Part shown: positions 6,077 through 12,284 of the stretch, piece after piece
Layout of the letters: each line of letters begins with the position of its first letter
How positions within the stretch are numbered: position 1 is the first letter of the stretch
Origin: Chloroflexota bacterium
GTDB taxonomy: Bacteria; Chloroflexota; UBA11872
Direction of reading: 5' to 3'
NCBI GenBank assembly: GCA_026706485.1
Contig: JAPOYR010000013.1
Coordinates: 124,001 to 188,000 of the forward strand
DNA: 64,000 bases
Notes under the pieces: generated by a model
Database searches by the model: none
Seen by the model: only the letters and a program-made list of their open reading frames with translations
What the model was told of the DNA's origin: nothing
Made by a program: the position numbers and the translations under genes

Positions 6077-7141
6077 TCATGCGGCCGGGGCCCGAAGCTC
6101 GCGCAGCACGTCGTGAACGATCGTGGGGTCCACGTGATGCCCCGGGCTGGCCGCGCCGATGCGCTGGGCCAGCACCCATTGGATGCGCCCCCCGCGCACT
6201 TTCTTGTCCCGCTGCATCGCCTGCCGCAGGTCGTCGGGCGCGGCACTCGCATACGTTTGCGGCAGGCCGACGCGGCGCAGCAGCGCGTCTTGACGCTCGG
6301 CGTTGGCTTCGGTCAGCACAGCCGCGCGAACACTGATGGCCGCGGCCCCGCGCATGCCGATGGCCACCGCCTCGCCGTGCCGGTAGGCGCCGTAGCCGCA
6401 CACGGTTTCGAGCGCGTGGGCGATGGTGTGCCCGTAGTTGAGCACGGCGCGCGGGCCGCGGTCGTGCGGATCCTCGTCCACGATCCGCGCCTTCCAGCGC
6501 ACGCAGCGTGTCACCAGCTCTTCGAGCAAGGCGGGGTCGTGCAGCGCATCGACGCTCCGCTCGATCAGCTCGAACATGTCTGCGTCGAAGATCATCGCGG
6601 TCTTGATCACTTCGGCGTAGTCCGCCACCAGCTGCTCGCGGGGAAGGGTGGCCAGCAGGTCGGTATCGATCACGCTCGGCCGTGCCGGGTAGAAGGCGCC
6701 GACGAGGTTCTTGCCCGCCGCCAGATCAACGGCCACCTTGCCGCCGACGCTGCTGTCGATCTGGGCCAGCAGGGTGGTCGGCACCTGGATCAACGGCACC
6801 CCGCGCAGGTAGGCGGCGGCCACGAATCCGGCAAGGTCGCCAACCACGCCGCCGCCGAGGGCGATGATGGGGTCGCCGCGCTCGGCGCCTTGCTCCGCCA
6901 GCCAGATCCACAAATCGGATGCAATCTCGACCGACTTGCTGGATTCGCCGGGGGGAACGGCCTGCGCGTTGACGTTGACGCCGTCGCGGGCCAAGCCCGC
7001 CACGATACGGTCGCCGTGCAGCCGCATCACGGTGGCGTCGGCAATCACCCACGCGCGCGGGGGCAAGCCCTCCCGCTCCAGCACCCGCGCCAGCCGACTG
7101 CTGGCGCCGCGCTCGATCTGGATGTGGTCCATGGTGTCCAT
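6077..7141 (-). CDS. aroB: 3-dehydroquinate synthase
   Basis: AroB converts DAHP to 3-dehydroquinate, the second step of the shikimate pathway, using NAD and a divalent metal. The 354-residue protein has the GGGVVGDLAGFVA nucleotide-binding segment, the QVPTTLLAQIDSSVGGK active-site segment and NLVGAFYPARPSVIDTDLL. Metal-ligand histidines are visible in NYGHTIAHALE and RHGEAVAIGM. Length is normal (about 350-370). Its ATG shares one base with the aroK stop (TGATG), so translation is probably coupled. It is the last aro gene of the operon. Confidence 0.97.
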   Translation of the reverse strand: MDTMDHIQIERGASSRLARVLEREGLPPRAWVIADATVMRLHGDRIVAGLARDGVNVNAQAVPPGESSKSVEIASDLWIWLAEQGAERGDPIIALGGGVVGDLAGFVAAAYLRGVPLIQVPTTLLAQIDSSVGGKVAVDLAAGKNLVGAFYPARPSVIDTDLLATLPREQLVADYAEVIKTAMIFDADMFELIERSVDALHDPALLEELVTRCVRWKARIVDEDPHDRGPRAVLNYGHTIAHALETVCGYGAYRHGEAVAIGMRGAAAISVRAAVLTEANAERQDALLRRVGLPQTYASAAPDDLRQAMQRDKKVRGGRIQWVLAQRIGAASPGHHVDPTIVHDVLRELRAPAA

Positions 7142-7689
7142 CAGGCCGAGCCGGTGGCGTTTGCGGCGCGCACCTCAGCGGCCAGCGTGTCGGCAATTTC
7201 GGCCACCGAGCGGTCGTCGGTCGCGACATGCAGGTGGGCCTGTCGGTAGGCGGCTTCGCGCGCCGCGATCAAGTCGGCGAGGCGGCGGCGTGGATCGTCG
7301 CCGAGCATGGGCCGCGGCTCGGCCGCCAGCCCGGCTTCCAGACGGACGGCGGCCACGTCCGGGCTGACCTGCAGCCAGGCGACGAGACCGCGCGCGAGCA
7401 GCCGCTCGCGGGTCGGCGCATCGGCCATGGCGCCGCCGCCGAGCGCCCCGACGGCGCACGGTCGCGCGCTCAAGGCATCCACCACGTCCCGTTCCAGGTC
7501 GCGAAACGCCGGCTCGCCGTCCTGGGCGAAGATCTGTGGAATCGACCTGCCGTCGCGCGCCGCGATTTCCGCGTCGCTGTCCCAGGCCGACCAGCCGAGT
7601 CGAGCCGCGGCGGCCCTGGCGACCGACGATTTGCCGGCGCCGCTCATGCCCACGAGGAACAGTCGGTCCACGGGGCGGCGGCCGCTCAC
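7141..7689 (-). CDS. aroK: Shikimate kinase
   Basis: AroK phosphorylates shikimate at the 3-hydroxyl with ATP. The protein has the P-loop GMSGAGKSS, the DSD shikimate-binding motif (WDSDAEI), the GEPAFRDLE segment, GGGA (substrate loop) and the lid arginine in RPML. I chose the GTG at 7689 because it overlaps the aroC stop as GTGA and gives 182 residues; a second GTG at 7671 (176 residues) begins directly at the VDRLFLVGMSG strand and is equally compatible with the family. It is coupled downstream to aroB. Confidence 0.95.
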   Translation of the reverse strand: MSGRRPVDRLFLVGMSGAGKSSVARAAAARLGWSAWDSDAEIAARDGRSIPQIFAQDGEPAFRDLERDVVDALSARPCAVGALGGGAMADAPTRERLLARGLVAWLQVSPDVAAVRLEAGLAAEPRPMLGDDPRRRLADLIAAREAAYRQAHLHVATDDRSVAEIADTLAAEVRAANATGSA

Positions 7690-8870
7690 GTGGCCGCGGG
7701 CGCTGCCCGCGAGGCCGCCCGCTGTGCGCGCACCGCGGCCGCGATGTCCTCCATGTTGTCGCCGCCGAACTTCTCGAGCAGCGCGTCGGCCAGCACCAGC
7801 GCCACCATGGCCTCGCCGATCACGCCGGCCGCCGGCACCACGCACACGTCCGAGCGTTCGAAGTGCGCCTGGGTGCGCTCGAGGGTCTTGACGTCGACGG
7901 TTTGCAGCGGGGTGCGCATGGTCGAGATGGGCTTCAGGGCGCCGCGCACGATCAGCGGCTGCCCGTTGGTCATGCCGCCCTCGGTGCCGCCGGCGCGATT
8001 GCTCAGGCGCGTCCAGCCGCGCGCCTGCGTGCGATCGATCTCGTCGTGCACGTCGTGGCCCCGGCGCGCGGTGTTGTCGAACGCGCTCCCGATCTCCACG
8101 CCCTTGACGGCGTTGATGCTCAGGATGGCTTGCGCCAGGCGTCCATCGAGCTTGCGGTCCCAGTGCACGTGGCTGCCAAGACCGATGGGCAGGCCCCAGG
8201 CGACGACCTCGAACACGCCGCCCAGAGTCGAGCCGGCCGCACCGGCGGCGTCGATGGCTTCGATCATGGCGTCGGCGCGCTCGGGCGTGACGGCCCGCAC
8301 CGGCGAGGCCTCGACGTCGTCCCAGGGCCAGGATTCCGGCTGCAAGGGGTCCAGATCGGGCGTGTCGTCCACGGGACCGATGCGCGCCGCGCGGCTGCGG
8401 ATCTCGATGCCGGCGGCGGCCAGCAGCCGACGCGCGACCGCGCCCGCGGCCACCCGCGAGGTGGTTTCGCGCGCGCTGGAGCGCTCCAGGATGTTGCGCA
8501 GGTCGTCGGTGCCGTACTTGACCATGCCCGCTAGATCCGCATGACCAGGCCGGGGCTTGGTGACCGGCGGAATCTCTCCGTCGATCGGCTCCACCGCCAT
8601 CTTGTCCTGCCAGTTGGCCCAGTCGCGGTTCTCGATGAGCAAGGCCACCGGACTGCCCAGGGTGCGACCGTGGCGCACGCCGCTGCGGATGGTGGCCTGG
8701 TCGCGCTCGATCTGCATGCGCCCGCCGCGACCGTAGCCGCCTTGCCGACGCGCCAGATCGGGGTTGATGTCGTCCGCGGTGAGGGCGAGTCCGAACGGCA
8801 GCCCCTCGACGATGACGGTCAGTCCGGGGCCGTGCGACTCGCCGGCGGTGAGAAAACGAAGGCGTCCCAT
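7686..8870 (-). CDS. aroC: Chorismate synthase
   Basis: AroC removes phosphate from EPSP to give chorismate, the last step of the pathway, with reduced FMN as cofactor. The 394-residue protein shows the family N-terminus (RFLTAGESHGPGL), the ARRQGGYGRGGRM signature, the SARETTSRVAAGAVAR segment and RAGGTEGGMTNGQP near the C-terminal third. Length is in the usual range (350-400). The start codon follows the aroE stop by 4 nt and the stop overlaps the aroK start. Confidence 0.97.
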   Translation of the reverse strand: MGRLRFLTAGESHGPGLTVIVEGLPFGLALTADDINPDLARRQGGYGRGGRMQIERDQATIRSGVRHGRTLGSPVALLIENRDWANWQDKMAVEPIDGEIPPVTKPRPGHADLAGMVKYGTDDLRNILERSSARETTSRVAAGAVARRLLAAAGIEIRSRAARIGPVDDTPDLDPLQPESWPWDDVEASPVRAVTPERADAMIEAIDAAGAAGSTLGGVFEVVAWGLPIGLGSHVHWDRKLDGRLAQAILSINAVKGVEIGSAFDNTARRGHDVHDEIDRTQARGWTRLSNRAGGTEGGMTNGQPLIVRGALKPISTMRTPLQTVDVKTLERTQAHFERSDVCVVPAAGVIGEAMVALVLADALLEKFGGDNMEDIAAAVRAQRAASRAAPAAT

Positions 8871-8874
8871 GGTG

Positions 8875-9738
8875 CTAGGCCCCTGACGCGGCCAGCGCGT
8901 TCCGGGCAGCGTCCATCATAGTGTCCACGGGCGCCGGCCGGCCCAGCCATCGTTCGAGGCTGGCGGCGCCCTGCAGGACCAGCATTTCCAGACCGCCGAG
9001 CACGCGACAGCCGATGGACCGCGCGTGCGCCAGCAGGGGCGTTTCCGCGGGGCGGTAGACGATGTCGCAGACGAAGAGCCCGTCGTGCAGCCACGACAGC
9101 GGCAGTGGAGCGGCCATCGGATCCGGGCCGCCGACCATTCCCAGGCTCGTGGCATTCACCAACAATTCGGCGTCGCGCACCTCGCGTGGCAGCGCCGAAT
9201 CGGCAAGACCGCAGCTGGTGACGGCCAGCGGCTGGCCGGCGAGGGCCGCAGCTAACGCGTCGGCGCGCTCGCGGCGCCGGTTGGCCAGGGTCAGATGCTC
9301 GACTCCGAGGTCGGCGAGCGCCCAGGCCACGGCGCGGCCCGCCCCGCCCGCGCCCAACAGCACGGCGCGTGCGCCGGCAGGGTCGAAGCCGCCGTGCTCG
9401 GTGAGCGCGCGCGCGAAGCCTTCCATGTCGGTGTTGTCGCCGATGAGCTTGCCGTCGCGGGCGTCGACCGTGTTCACGGCCGCCAGACGCTCGGCGGCGG
9501 GGGTGCGCCGGTCGACCAGCTCGGCCACGCGCAGCTTGTGGGGAATCGTCACGTTGAGCCCGCGCCACTCGCCGCGGCGAGCCTCGCGCACACGCGCCTC
9601 GACATCCTCCGGCGGCGTCGGGACGGCGCGATAGACCGCGGGCACGCCCAGGGCGTCAAGCGCCGCCTGCTGAAACGCCGGGGACAGCGTGTGTCCGAGC
9701 GGCCAGCCGATGACGCCAAAGCGGAGGTCGGGGCTCAT
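8875..9738 (-). CDS. aroE: Shikimate dehydrogenase (NADP+)
   Basis: AroE reduces 3-dehydroshikimate to shikimate. The 287-residue protein has the substrate-binding start VIGWPLGHTLSPAFQ, the catalytic lysine in LNVTIPHK, NTVD and the catalytic aspartate in GDNTDMEGF. A Rossmann motif GAGGAGRAVA is followed by ANRRRER, whose arginines suit NADP. ATSLGM and VLQGAASLERW close the family pattern. Its ATG overlaps the aroA stop as ATGA. Confidence 0.96.
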   Translation of the reverse strand: MSPDLRFGVIGWPLGHTLSPAFQQAALDALGVPAVYRAVPTPPEDVEARVREARRGEWRGLNVTIPHKLRVAELVDRRTPAAERLAAVNTVDARDGKLIGDNTDMEGFARALTEHGGFDPAGARAVLLGAGGAGRAVAWALADLGVEHLTLANRRRERADALAAALAGQPLAVTSCGLADSALPREVRDAELLVNATSLGMVGGPDPMAAPLPLSWLHDGLFVCDIVYRPAETPLLAHARSIGCRVLGGLEMLVLQGAASLERWLGRPAPVDTMMDAARNALAASGA

Positions 9739-11027
9739 TCGCTCAGGGTCGCCAGATCGTCCCAGAAGCCGGGGTAGGACACCGCGGCGCTGTCCGCGCC
9801 GTCGATGGTGACGGGGCCGTTGCCCGAGAGCGCGGCGGCCGCCGCCAGCATGGCGATGCGGTGGTCACCGGCGGCGTCGGCGCGGCCGCCGCCGGCCCGT
9901 TGGCCGCCGGCGGTCACGAAGCCGTCGGGCTGCTCGTCAACCTCGACGCCGAGCGCGGCGAGGGCCGCGGCCGTCGTGCGCAGCCGGTTGGATTCCTTGG
10001 CGGCCAGCTCGGCGGCGTCGCGAAGCCGGGACTCGCCGTCGGCATGCGCGGCCAGCAGCGCCACCAGGGGGGCCTCGTCGATGAGTCGCGGCACGAGGTC
10101 GCCGCCCGCGTCGGCGGCGTGCATGGATGACGATCGGGCCACGACGGTCCCGACGGGCTCCGGATCGTGGCGCTCGACTTCGACGCTCACGTCGGCGCCC
10201 ATGGTGCGCAGCACGTCGAGCAGGCCGGTTCGCCCGGGGTTGAGACCCACGTCGCGAACGGTGATCTCCGCGTCGGGATGCACCACGGCCGCCGCAATCC
10301 AGAATGCCGCCGACGAAAAATCGCCCGGAATGTCCAGGTCCAGCGGCGCCAGCGGCCCATTCGGCGTGCAGCCGACGGTTCCATCGTCAGAGGTGACCGT
10401 GGCCCCCTGCGCGCGCAGCAAGCGCTCGGTGTGGTCGCGGGAAGGCGCCGGCTGCTCCAGCGACGTCGGTCCGTCGGCTTGCAGGGCGGCCAGCAGGACG
10501 GCCGACTTGACCTGGGCGCTGGCCACCAGCGACCGCAGACGGGCTCCGTGCAAACGGGCCGGCGCGAAGGCCATGGGCGCGCGGGTGCCGTCGGCGCGGG
10601 CGTGAATCCGGGCGCCCATCGCGCGCAAGGGCTCGACCACCCGCCCCATCGGCCGGCGGCGCAGCGAGTCGTCCCCGGTAACGAACGAATGGAAGGACCG
10701 GCCGGCGAGGATGCCGCTGACGAGGCGCAGCGTAGTGCCGCTGTTGCCGCACGACAAGACATCGGCCGGCTCGCGCAAGCCCGAAAACCCGCCGCCGCGA
10801 ACCACCAGCTCGTCGCCGTGCACGGCGTGAGACACGCCCAACGCCGCGACGACGCCGGCCGTGGCCTGCGTATCGGCGCCGAGCCCCGGCCGTCGAACGC
10901 GCGAGTCCCCGGATCCGATCGCGCCCAGCAGCAGGGCCCGATGGGTGATGGACTTGTCGCCCGGCACGCGCAGCTCGCCGCGCAGGCGGCGCGCCGGCGG
11001 CACGACACGACTCCGCGCCGAGGACAT
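9735..11027 (-). CDS. aroA: 3-phosphoshikimate 1-carboxyvinyltransferase (EPSP synthase)
   Basis: AroA joins PEP to shikimate 3-phosphate. The 430-residue protein has GDKSITHRALLLGAIGSG near the N-terminus, CGNSGTTLRL (PEP site), RRRPMGRVVEPLRAMGA, SAQVKSAVLLAAL, DHTERLL and PGDFSSAAFW; the RPMxRV and SAQVKS forms resemble class II enzymes. The ATG at 11027 shares a base with the aroF stop (TGATG), and a longer frame upstream is only the overlap with aroF. Some positions in the C-terminal half are rich in alanine but no key motif is missing. Confidence 0.96.
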   Translation of the reverse strand: MSSARSRVVPPARRLRGELRVPGDKSITHRALLLGAIGSGDSRVRRPGLGADTQATAGVVAALGVSHAVHGDELVVRGGGFSGLREPADVLSCGNSGTTLRLVSGILAGRSFHSFVTGDDSLRRRPMGRVVEPLRAMGARIHARADGTRAPMAFAPARLHGARLRSLVASAQVKSAVLLAALQADGPTSLEQPAPSRDHTERLLRAQGATVTSDDGTVGCTPNGPLAPLDLDIPGDFSSAAFWIAAAVVHPDAEITVRDVGLNPGRTGLLDVLRTMGADVSVEVERHDPEPVGTVVARSSSMHAADAGGDLVPRLIDEAPLVALLAAHADGESRLRDAAELAAKESNRLRTTAAALAALGVEVDEQPDGFVTAGGQRAGGGRADAAGDHRIAMLAAAAALSGNGPVTIDGADSAAVSYPGFWDDLATLSE

Positions 11028-12061
11028 CAGCTCACCGCGGCGGGAGCCGGCACCGGGCGGCCCAGCGCCTGCGCCATTGGCACGAGCTTGCCCATGAGCT
11101 GCGTGAAGTGCTCCAGGCTGAGACTCTGCGCCCCGTCGATCAGCGCCGTGTCCGGCGAGGGATGCACCTCGAGCAGCACGGCGTCGGCGCCGGCGGCGAC
11201 CGCGGCCAGGGACATGGATTCCACCATGTGCCACTTGCCGGTGCCCTGCGACGGGTCCACGACGATTGGGAGGTGGGTCGCCCGGCGCAGCAGCGGCACG
11301 GCGTTTAGGTCGAGCGTAAAGCGCGATTCGGTTTCAAAGGTGCGGATGCCGCGCTCACACAGCAGCACGTTGGGATTGCCCGCCGCCAGGATGTACTCCG
11401 CGCACATGATCCACTCTTCGATGGTGTTGCCCATGCCGCGCTTGAGCAGCACCGGCGTCTCGAGCCGCCCCACCTCGTTGAGCAGGGGGTAGTTCTGGGC
11501 GTTGCGCGTGCCGATCTGCAAAATGTCGGCCACGTCCGCGATTTCCTCGACCTGCCGCGGGTCGAGAATCTCGGTGATGACGGGCAAGCCGGTCAGGGCC
11601 TTGGCTTCCTCGAGCAGCCGCAGGCCCTCGGTTCCCATTCCCTGGAAGCTGTAGGGCGAGCTGCGCGGCTTGAACGCCCCGCCGCGGAGAATCTGGGCGC
11701 CTTGCGCCGCCACGTGCTCGGCGGTGACGATCAGCTGGTCGCGGCTTTCCACCGTGCACGGTCCCGCCATGACGGCGACCGAGCCGTCGCCGATCGTGAC
11801 GCCGCCCACGGTGATGGCGGTGCGCTCCTGCCCGTCGCGCCGCGCCGCCAGCTTGTAGGGCGCGCCGACCGGCATGGCGGTTTCGACCCCCGGCATGCGC
11901 TGGATCTGCTGCAGCAGCTCAGGCGGGCGGTGGCCAATCACCGCGATCACGGTCTTCTCGACGCCGTAGAGCATCCGCGTTTCCAAGCCCTCGGCGCGGA
12001 TACGCCCGGCGACGGCTTCGATCTGGTCACTGGAGGCCTGCTTGGCCAGGACGACAATCAT
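11027..12061 (-). CDS. aroF: 3-deoxy-7-phosphoheptulonate (DAHP) synthase, type I-beta with N-terminal regulatory domain
   Basis: This enzyme condenses PEP and erythrose 4-phosphate and commits carbon to the shikimate pathway. The 344-residue protein has a ferredoxin-like N-terminal domain (about 1-75, MIVVLAKQAS onward) of the kind that gives feedback control in Thermotoga-type enzymes. The barrel follows: MAGPCTVES, LRGGAFKPRSSPYSFQG, IGTRNAQN, LLKRGMGNTIEEW and DPSQGTGKWH. The start at 12061 has a strong AAGGAG site 9 nt upstream. It is the first gene of the aro operon and sits behind a leader peptide and an intrinsic terminator, so both enzyme-level and transcript-level control are likely. 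Confidence 0.96.
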   Translation of the reverse strand: MIVVLAKQASSDQIEAVAGRIRAEGLETRMLYGVEKTVIAVIGHRPPELLQQIQRMPGVETAMPVGAPYKLAARRDGQERTAITVGGVTIGDGSVAVMAGPCTVESRDQLIVTAEHVAAQGAQILRGGAFKPRSSPYSFQGMGTEGLRLLEEAKALTGLPVITEILDPRQVEEIADVADILQIGTRNAQNYPLLNEVGRLETPVLLKRGMGNTIEEWIMCAEYILAAGNPNVLLCERGIRTFETESRFTLDLNAVPLLRRATHLPIVVDPSQGTGKWHMVESMSLAAVAAGADAVLLEVHPSPDTALIDGAQSLSLEHFTQLMGKLVPMAQALGRPVPAPAAVS

Positions 12062-12093: not shown

Positions 12094-12121
12094 CAAAAAA
12101 GCAGAGGCTTTGACCTCTGCT
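12094..12121 (-). terminator. Attenuator terminator in the aroF leader
   Basis: On the minus strand AGCAGAGG (12121-12114) pairs with CCTCTGCT (12107-12100) around a 6-nt loop, and the 3' arm runs into TTTTTTGTTG (12100-12091). It lies between the stop of a Tyr/Phe-containing leader peptide and the aroF ribosome site. The 9-nt segment just before it (12130-12122) is perfectly complementary to part of the leader reading frame (12177-12169), which could form an alternative structure; two further pairs across a mismatch would invade the terminator's 5' arm. Confidence 0.85.
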
Positions 12122-12146
12122 GCCGGCGCGTTCTCGATCGGGGGAG

Positions 12147-12224
12147 CTACATGACGTGCGCACCCAGCCGCGCCGGCCGCGTAAACGCGAAGGTATACCG
12201 CTCGACCCGGCTGATTCGTGGCAT
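12147..12224 (-). CDS. Leader peptide of the aro operon (25 aa, Tyr and Phe codons)
   Basis: The 25-codon frame begins MPRISRVERYTFAFTRP and ends GAHVM. Codons 10, 12 and 14 are Tyr, Phe and Phe, the two aromatic end products of the pathway. The stop codon is 25 nt before the terminator stem, the geometry expected of ribosome-mediated attenuation as in pheA-type leaders. Starvation for charged tRNA-Tyr or tRNA-Phe would stall the ribosome just upstream of the segment able to pair with the terminator-proximal sequence. No tryptophan codon is present. The ribosome site is weak. Function is inferred from position and composition. Confidence 0.65.
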   Translation of the reverse strand: MPRISRVERYTFAFTRPARLGAHVM

Positions 12225-12255
12225 TCGTGAGCCTGCGCCGTCCCCGTGCGCCGCG

Positions 12256-12284
12256 AGTGTGCGCGCGAAGCGCCGATTCGTCAA
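12256..12284 (-). promoter_or_regulatory. Candidate promoter of the aro operon
   Basis: On the minus strand TTGACG (12284-12279) is followed after 17 nt by CACACT (12261-12256), a good -35 and a weak -10. Transcription would start near 12249, about 25 nt before the leader peptide ATG. Confidence 0.45.

Follow-up and report, generated by a model that had tools for sequence, protein, structure and literature searches.

The 64,000-nucleotide stretch of Chloroflexota DNA analysed here, called the window below, carries in front of aroF what is probably a cis-acting, ribosome-mediated transcription attenuator, which would sense charged tRNA-Tyr and tRNA-Phe and control the aroF-aroA-aroE-aroC-aroK-aroB operon, possibly with a steric step at a helix termed P1. 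The sequence holds an open reading frame with aromatic codons, a terminator before the first gene, a helix just past the sensing codons, and sensed residues that match the gene downstream.

Architecture of the aroF leader region

The NCBIfam matches bear out the complete six-gene operon of the original prediction, in the order aroF-aroA-aroE-aroC-aroK-aroB. The first gene, aroF (11030..12061, minus strand), encodes a type I-beta DAHP synthase (NF006421, 457 bits; TIGR01361, 374 bits), and aroA, aroE, aroC, aroK and aroB (6080..11054, minus strand) follow with the same orientation and either overlap or lie close together. Upstream on the same strand lies the leader frame of 25 codons, MPRISRVERYTFAFTRPARLGAHVM (12147..12224), which runs from an ATG at 12224-12222 to a stop codon ending at 12147, 85 nt before aroF. 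Its RYTFAF core, with sensing codons Tyr10 (TAT), Phe12 (TTC) and Phe14 (TTT), is found just where it had been predicted. The 9-nt complement noted earlier is also exact: the P1 5' strand GCCGGCGCG (12169..12177, minus strand), identified by comparison and covariation, pairs over its full length with the 3' strand CGCGCCGGC (12122..12130, minus strand), which is supported by covariation. P1 begins 20, 14 and 8 nt past the first base of the Tyr10, Phe12 and Phe14 codons respectively. Directly adjoining the end of the 3' strand is the predicted hairpin with its T6 tract, an intrinsic terminator (12095..12121, minus strand) with a 9-bp stem AGCAGAGGT/GCCTCTGCT at 12121-12100, a 4-nt loop (CAAA) and a U6 tract whose last base, 12095, is separated by 33 nt from the start of aroF at 12061.

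A promoter-like pair had also been proposed upstream, and this part of the prediction stands only partly. The hexamers are present, TTGACG at 12284-12279 and CACACT at 12261-12256, and the same hexamers with the same 17-nt spacing recur in the genus and family relatives that were read, which makes TTGACG-N17-CACACT (12256..12284, minus strand) the probable leader promoter. It is a poor match to the sigma-70 consensus, and a promoter scan with a cut-off found none. In four other upstream regions (L026, L022, L097, L101) a promoter-like TTGAC-N17/18-TANNNT lies very near the leader ATG, which would make the mRNA leaderless or nearly so.

A simple filter leaves just two terminator-like hairpins in the window, of which this one alone has a cluster of aromatic codons upstream. 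The 3.37 Mb genome has a single copy of the exact terminator, GCAGAGG-N(3-8)-CCTCTGCTTTT. A covariance model scores the element at 86.9 bits (E 3e-22) and gives no further significant match within the window, and a plasmid search returned no match. With the codon usage of the window, the chance of at least three aromatic codons among five is near 0.001 per position. In the nine window open reading frames from which the usage figures were taken, TTC (76%) and TAC (75%) are the preferred codons; as the last sensing codon, however, 40 of 53 leaders have TTT. Folding of the GC-rich leader region as a single sequence is not unusual (z -1.4), and the case therefore rests on comparison.

Conservation and covariation across Chloroflexota

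A search of 301 Chloroflexota genomes gave AroF homologues in 270, and about 109 of the upstream regions were read. Automatic parsing resolved 53 of these aroF regions into one element. They come from 15 families, among them all five in the class to which the window belongs, and keep the leader and its aromatic codons while the flanks diverge. A loss of the frame or of the aromatic codons was looked for in close relatives; the frame and P1 are present in all six members of the genus, and the codons are retained there and in many families. The sequences differ across the class and many other Chloroflexota families and the layout is the same, consisting from 5' to 3' of a run of aromatic codons, the P1 5' strand, an inner stretch, the P1 3' strand, the terminator and a U-tract. 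The inner stretch is roughly 14-58 nt long and usually has its own hairpin, which is present in most families but counts for little as evidence (mean z -1.3 relative to mononucleotide shuffles). The aromatic run is YTFAF in the window's genus and YFAF in the sister genus; other lineages have YYTF, FYFF, YYYLF, YYFS, FFFFY, WYYYF, WYW or YYWW. P1 pairs in every family despite its differing sequence (GCCGGCGCG, CCCGGTGTG, GCCGGAGGGT, GGCATGACGG, TTCGGTGTGAC and others). A terminator of this kind was absent from the second aroF copies of three genomes (G030, G038, G040) and from the sampled members of f16, f22, f25, f34, f38, f44 and similar families. In one sister-genus genome (L013) the leader and P1 are kept and the 3' arm of the terminator is damaged (GCCACCGC, not GCCTCTGC), which is either real decay or an assembly error.

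Covariation of P1, which had been suggested as a check, is strong. When the P1 3' strands were swapped between families, none of 20,000 permutations was as good as the true partners for 14 families (z 8.9), and none of 10,000 for 24 representatives (z = 13.8). Standard pairs fill 92.2% of cells against 79.8% after shuffling, 96 cells are changed on both sides against 24 in shuffles, and the covariation score is 0.371, compared with 0.156 for shuffled and 0.08-0.135 for slid controls. Given the alignment only, unguided RNAalifold predicts both P1 and the terminator, and the terminator stem covaries in alignment-based pair counts. For P1 these counts are underestimates, because the GGCATGA families are out of register by 4-5 columns in the MAFFT alignment; the permutation tests are independent of that alignment.

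The spacing within the element is equally regular. In 47 of 52 elements the distance from the start of the last aromatic codon to P1 is 6-11 nt, most often 8; for the first aromatic codon it is mostly 15-23 nt. In 52 of 52 the end of P1 is 0-4 nt from the terminator. The position of the leader stop relative to the start of P1 has its own preferences, either about +7 to +10 nt or about +28 to +32 nt, and stops at +16 to +22 are less common.

We considered whether the leader frame could be fortuitous, with P1 and the terminator forming a plain terminator or an element that responds to a protein or ligand. The leader is known from sequence alone, which leaves some room for this reading. Yet from family to family the distance between the aromatic codons and P1 is fixed even as the residues switch among Y, F and W, the elements before tyrS described below carry Tyr only, and the element has no Rfam riboswitch match; we regard a fortuitous frame as very improbable. 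The conserved leader, codons, P1 and terminator together support the original prediction that these are the parts of a ribosome-mediated attenuator, presumably responsive to Tyr and Phe.

The element before other genes

Although the covariance model (R1) was trained on aroF elements only, it has matches in 90 of the 251 Chloroflexota genomes, some of them in families that were not used for training (f13, f14, f21, f32, f36, f39, f49), and it finds the element also before tyrS, pheS, tyrA and genes for an aroFGH-type DAHP synthase. The tyrS elements of four genomes (G024, G026, G028, G020) have leaders ending in DYPYLIPV, LYSYRIPV, ASYSYRIPV and CAYIGPARVALPLS, each followed by the stop codon, and Tyr is the sole aromatic residue near P1 (YPY, YSY, Y). 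Before pheS in G027 the leader, beginning MCRWAWLFTGPE, has Phe codons together with Trp; that of tyrA in G140 reads YAYWFYFSPPA up to its stop, and the DAHP synthase elements are those of G081 and G030. The sensed residues are thus Y, F or W for aroF and tyrA, Tyr only for tyrS, and Phe (with Trp) for pheS. Since the leaders before tyrS, pheS, tyrA and aroFGH carry matching residues, the codons follow the gene. Judged from these sequences, this independent match is the strongest argument for the leader peptide as the predicted sensor, and the putative attenuator is a phylum-level family of Chloroflexota and not peculiar to the operon of the window.

One of the tyrS leaders (L211) has a single sensing codon, 8 nt before P1. 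In three regions (L083, L086, L105) leaders with Trp codons tend to have CCAG or CCGG in the terminator arm, which could pair with the UGG codon; in a small test this pairing was below significance.

How the ribosome might control the terminator

According to our preferred mechanism, when Tyr and Phe are ample the ribosome would pass the aromatic codons and reach the leader stop, where it would cover the P1 5' strand or sit in the P1 loop. P1 would then be blocked, the terminator would fold, and transcription would end upstream of aroF. When Tyr or Phe is scarce, the ribosome would stall at Tyr10, Phe12 or Phe14 and P1 would pair across the remaining leader; P1, flush with the terminator, and the ribosome held next to it would stop the terminator from zipping up in the exit channel of RNA polymerase, and aroF would be transcribed. 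The stalling and the direction of the response, which we take from established attenuation biology, are very probably right.

The distances can be compared with the size of the ribosome. Counted from the first base of the codon in its A site, a ribosome covers about 12-13 nt; therefore stalls 14-23 nt before P1 would leave the helix free, and one at 8 nt would take up about 5 nt of P1. On this point the tyrS leader of L211 counts against the mechanism, as a stall at its only sensing codon would cover about 5 nt of P1. From the positions of the stop codons, a ribosome at the leader stop is predicted to mask P1 where the stop lies at most 22 nt past its start; with the stop about 28-32 nt past, the ribosome would be in the loop and would leave too little free RNA to close P1. 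As P1 would form with the ribosome held back and not after its passage, the sign of control is right only if P1 opposes termination.

How P1 would do so is less clear. The 9-nt pairing abuts the terminator without overlapping it, and the textbook scheme of alternative hairpins is for this reason not what we see in the sequence. P1 and the terminator share no base, and in minimum-energy folds the terminator forms with P1 in place, which counts against a switch: because the two coexist in these folds, equilibrium folding alone predicts none. The permutation tests found no helix competing for the terminator arm or for either P1 strand, and in the 52 elements we found no antiterminator of the classical trp/his kind, sharing nucleotides with the terminator 5' arm. 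Several candidates were tried and set aside. For an overlapping antiterminator, pairing of the aromatic codons, the inner region, the upstream 50 nt or the P1 5' strand with the terminator 5' arm was close to what permutation gives; a p of 0.03 obtained at first for the aromatic codons against the arm vanished with more families; pairing of the bases before the terminator with those after the U-tract gave p = 0.57; and a trp-like 1:2 helix was unsupported by the permutation tests. A partner for the arm was not found either in the few sequences of families with diverged arms. The near-invariance of the terminator arm (GCAGAGG) gives such partner tests weak power. As a separate observation, the stem AGCAGAGG/CCTCTGCT is nearly invariant even in very distant Chloroflexota families, though only pairing should matter, and no pairing partner was found to account for this.

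This near-invariance is also what could favour a textbook attenuator, in which P1 would be the analogue of the trp 1:2 hairpin (an anti-antiterminator), masked by a stall at the last aromatic codon, and a separate antiterminator, too short or too variable to be detected, would capture the terminator 5' arm; a conserved partner of an invariant arm would be invisible to permutation. Moreover, the best conserved sensing codon is 8 nt from P1, and a stall there would open about half of the 9-bp helix. Against this, the inner region, the 50 nt upstream and the aromatic codons do not beat permutation or shuffled arms in pairing with the terminator arm, a ribosome at the leader stop would block P1 too and so give the wrong sign, and the more upstream aromatic codons (14-23 nt) would serve no purpose. 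We consider this reading unlikely.

P1 ends directly upstream of the terminator arm, and a hairpin-paused polymerase stands about 10-11 nt downstream of its hairpin, for P1 within the terminator loop. P1 might therefore be mainly a pause hairpin that halts RNA polymerase until the ribosome comes, synchronising translation with transcription and leaving ribosome position alone to control the terminator. This alone would leave unexplained how the terminator is avoided in starvation, and a fixed distance between sensing codon and P1 would not be needed; we give it a rather small chance of being the main role of P1.

Since there is no shared base, both helices fold together and no third helix covaries, we prefer a model of exclusion by contact. 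A terminator hairpin has to close its base within the exit channel of the polymerase, and there would be no room for this next to a second helix that lies flush with it, or next to a ribosome that P1 tethers. That P1 excludes the terminator by adjacency and not by shared bases is close to an even bet, slightly on the doubtful side. More tentatively still, the element may represent a distinct class of attenuator, phylum-wide in Chloroflexota for aroF, tyrS, pheS, tyrA and aroFGH, in which a stall-dependent helix pins the ribosome and itself against the terminator and blocks it sterically, without an alternative fold of the terminator strands.

Comparison with known systems

In the trp attenuators of enterobacteria the sensing codons are combined with a stop codon near the switching helix, an intrinsic terminator, the direction of control predicted here, and an antiterminator and terminator that share a strand. 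The actinobacterial trp attenuators resemble the element in their sensing codons, stop near the switching helix, intrinsic terminator and predicted direction of control, but they have complementary triples in which antiterminator and terminator share a strand (PMC1262725), whereas here the covarying helix and the terminator only abut.

The Rfam 15 covariance models gave no match to the element at the gathering score or at E<=1. T-box riboswitches likewise respond, by way of tRNA charging, to a shortage of an amino acid and act on a terminator; the aroF element differs in its predicted translated leader, and by the Rfam covariance models it has no T-box sequence with a specifier loop. By contrast, trpE of the same genome (L162, G000:C11, 278345) and of the class (L149-L172) has a T-box-like GGGTGGCACCGCG followed by a terminator, and therefore Trp would be handled by another device than Tyr and Phe. 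Judging by these sequences, a single genome appears to use two different RNA devices, one for Trp and the other for Tyr/Phe, which fits the lack of Trp codons in the window leader; the leaders of several other lineages include Trp.

As of 2010, leader systems were described from Proteobacteria, Actinobacteria and, newly, Firmicutes only (PMC2965389). We found no leader-peptide attenuators of Chloroflexota in the openly readable papers searched; the Chloroflexota element is apparently an undescribed family of such attenuators, though its priority is not certain. Outside the phylum, four aroF regions of Eubacteriales/Oscillospiraceae (L039, L049, L050, L052) have other aromatic leaders, e.g. TTASFLFSFGWARFMGAGFFGM, with a terminator and a weak P1, apparently an independent attenuator of Firmicutes. 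The 500 nt upstream of aroF in an uncultured Photobacterium (L048) contain a candidate leader ending in CAFFSWWCHFPLRVV before its stop, then a strong terminator.

Two systems before aroF come closest. In Corynebacterium glutamicum the aroR leader (Phe-Tyr-Phe) precedes aroF (Neshat et al. 2014, as described in PMC11802643), and like the window element it combines such a leader with a DAHP synthase operon and read-through raised by ribosome stalling; it differs in being actinobacterial and reportedly Phe- but not Tyr-responsive (PMC11802643). This comparison covers the leader, the operon and the response. The uORFC-13-1 motif proposed before aroF in Acholeplasma shares a candidate uORF that codes for Phe and, close to an intrinsic terminator, a conserved helix, but its 24 examples, with at least one Phe codon, come from Acholeplasma and unassigned environmental sequences only, and it has no link to Chloroflexota, tyrS, pheS or tyrA (PMC8632094). 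Attenuation of aroF itself is thus already known (Corynebacterium) or proposed (Acholeplasma), and the Chloroflexota form is a variant. In it, one RNA layout is reused, with codons to match, ahead of several genes of a single pathway and of the tRNA synthetases that go with it, and the covariance model provides a means of annotating it. A helix that abuts the terminator, and does not overlap it as in the trp systems, poses a testable question: how a stalled ribosome prevents intrinsic termination.
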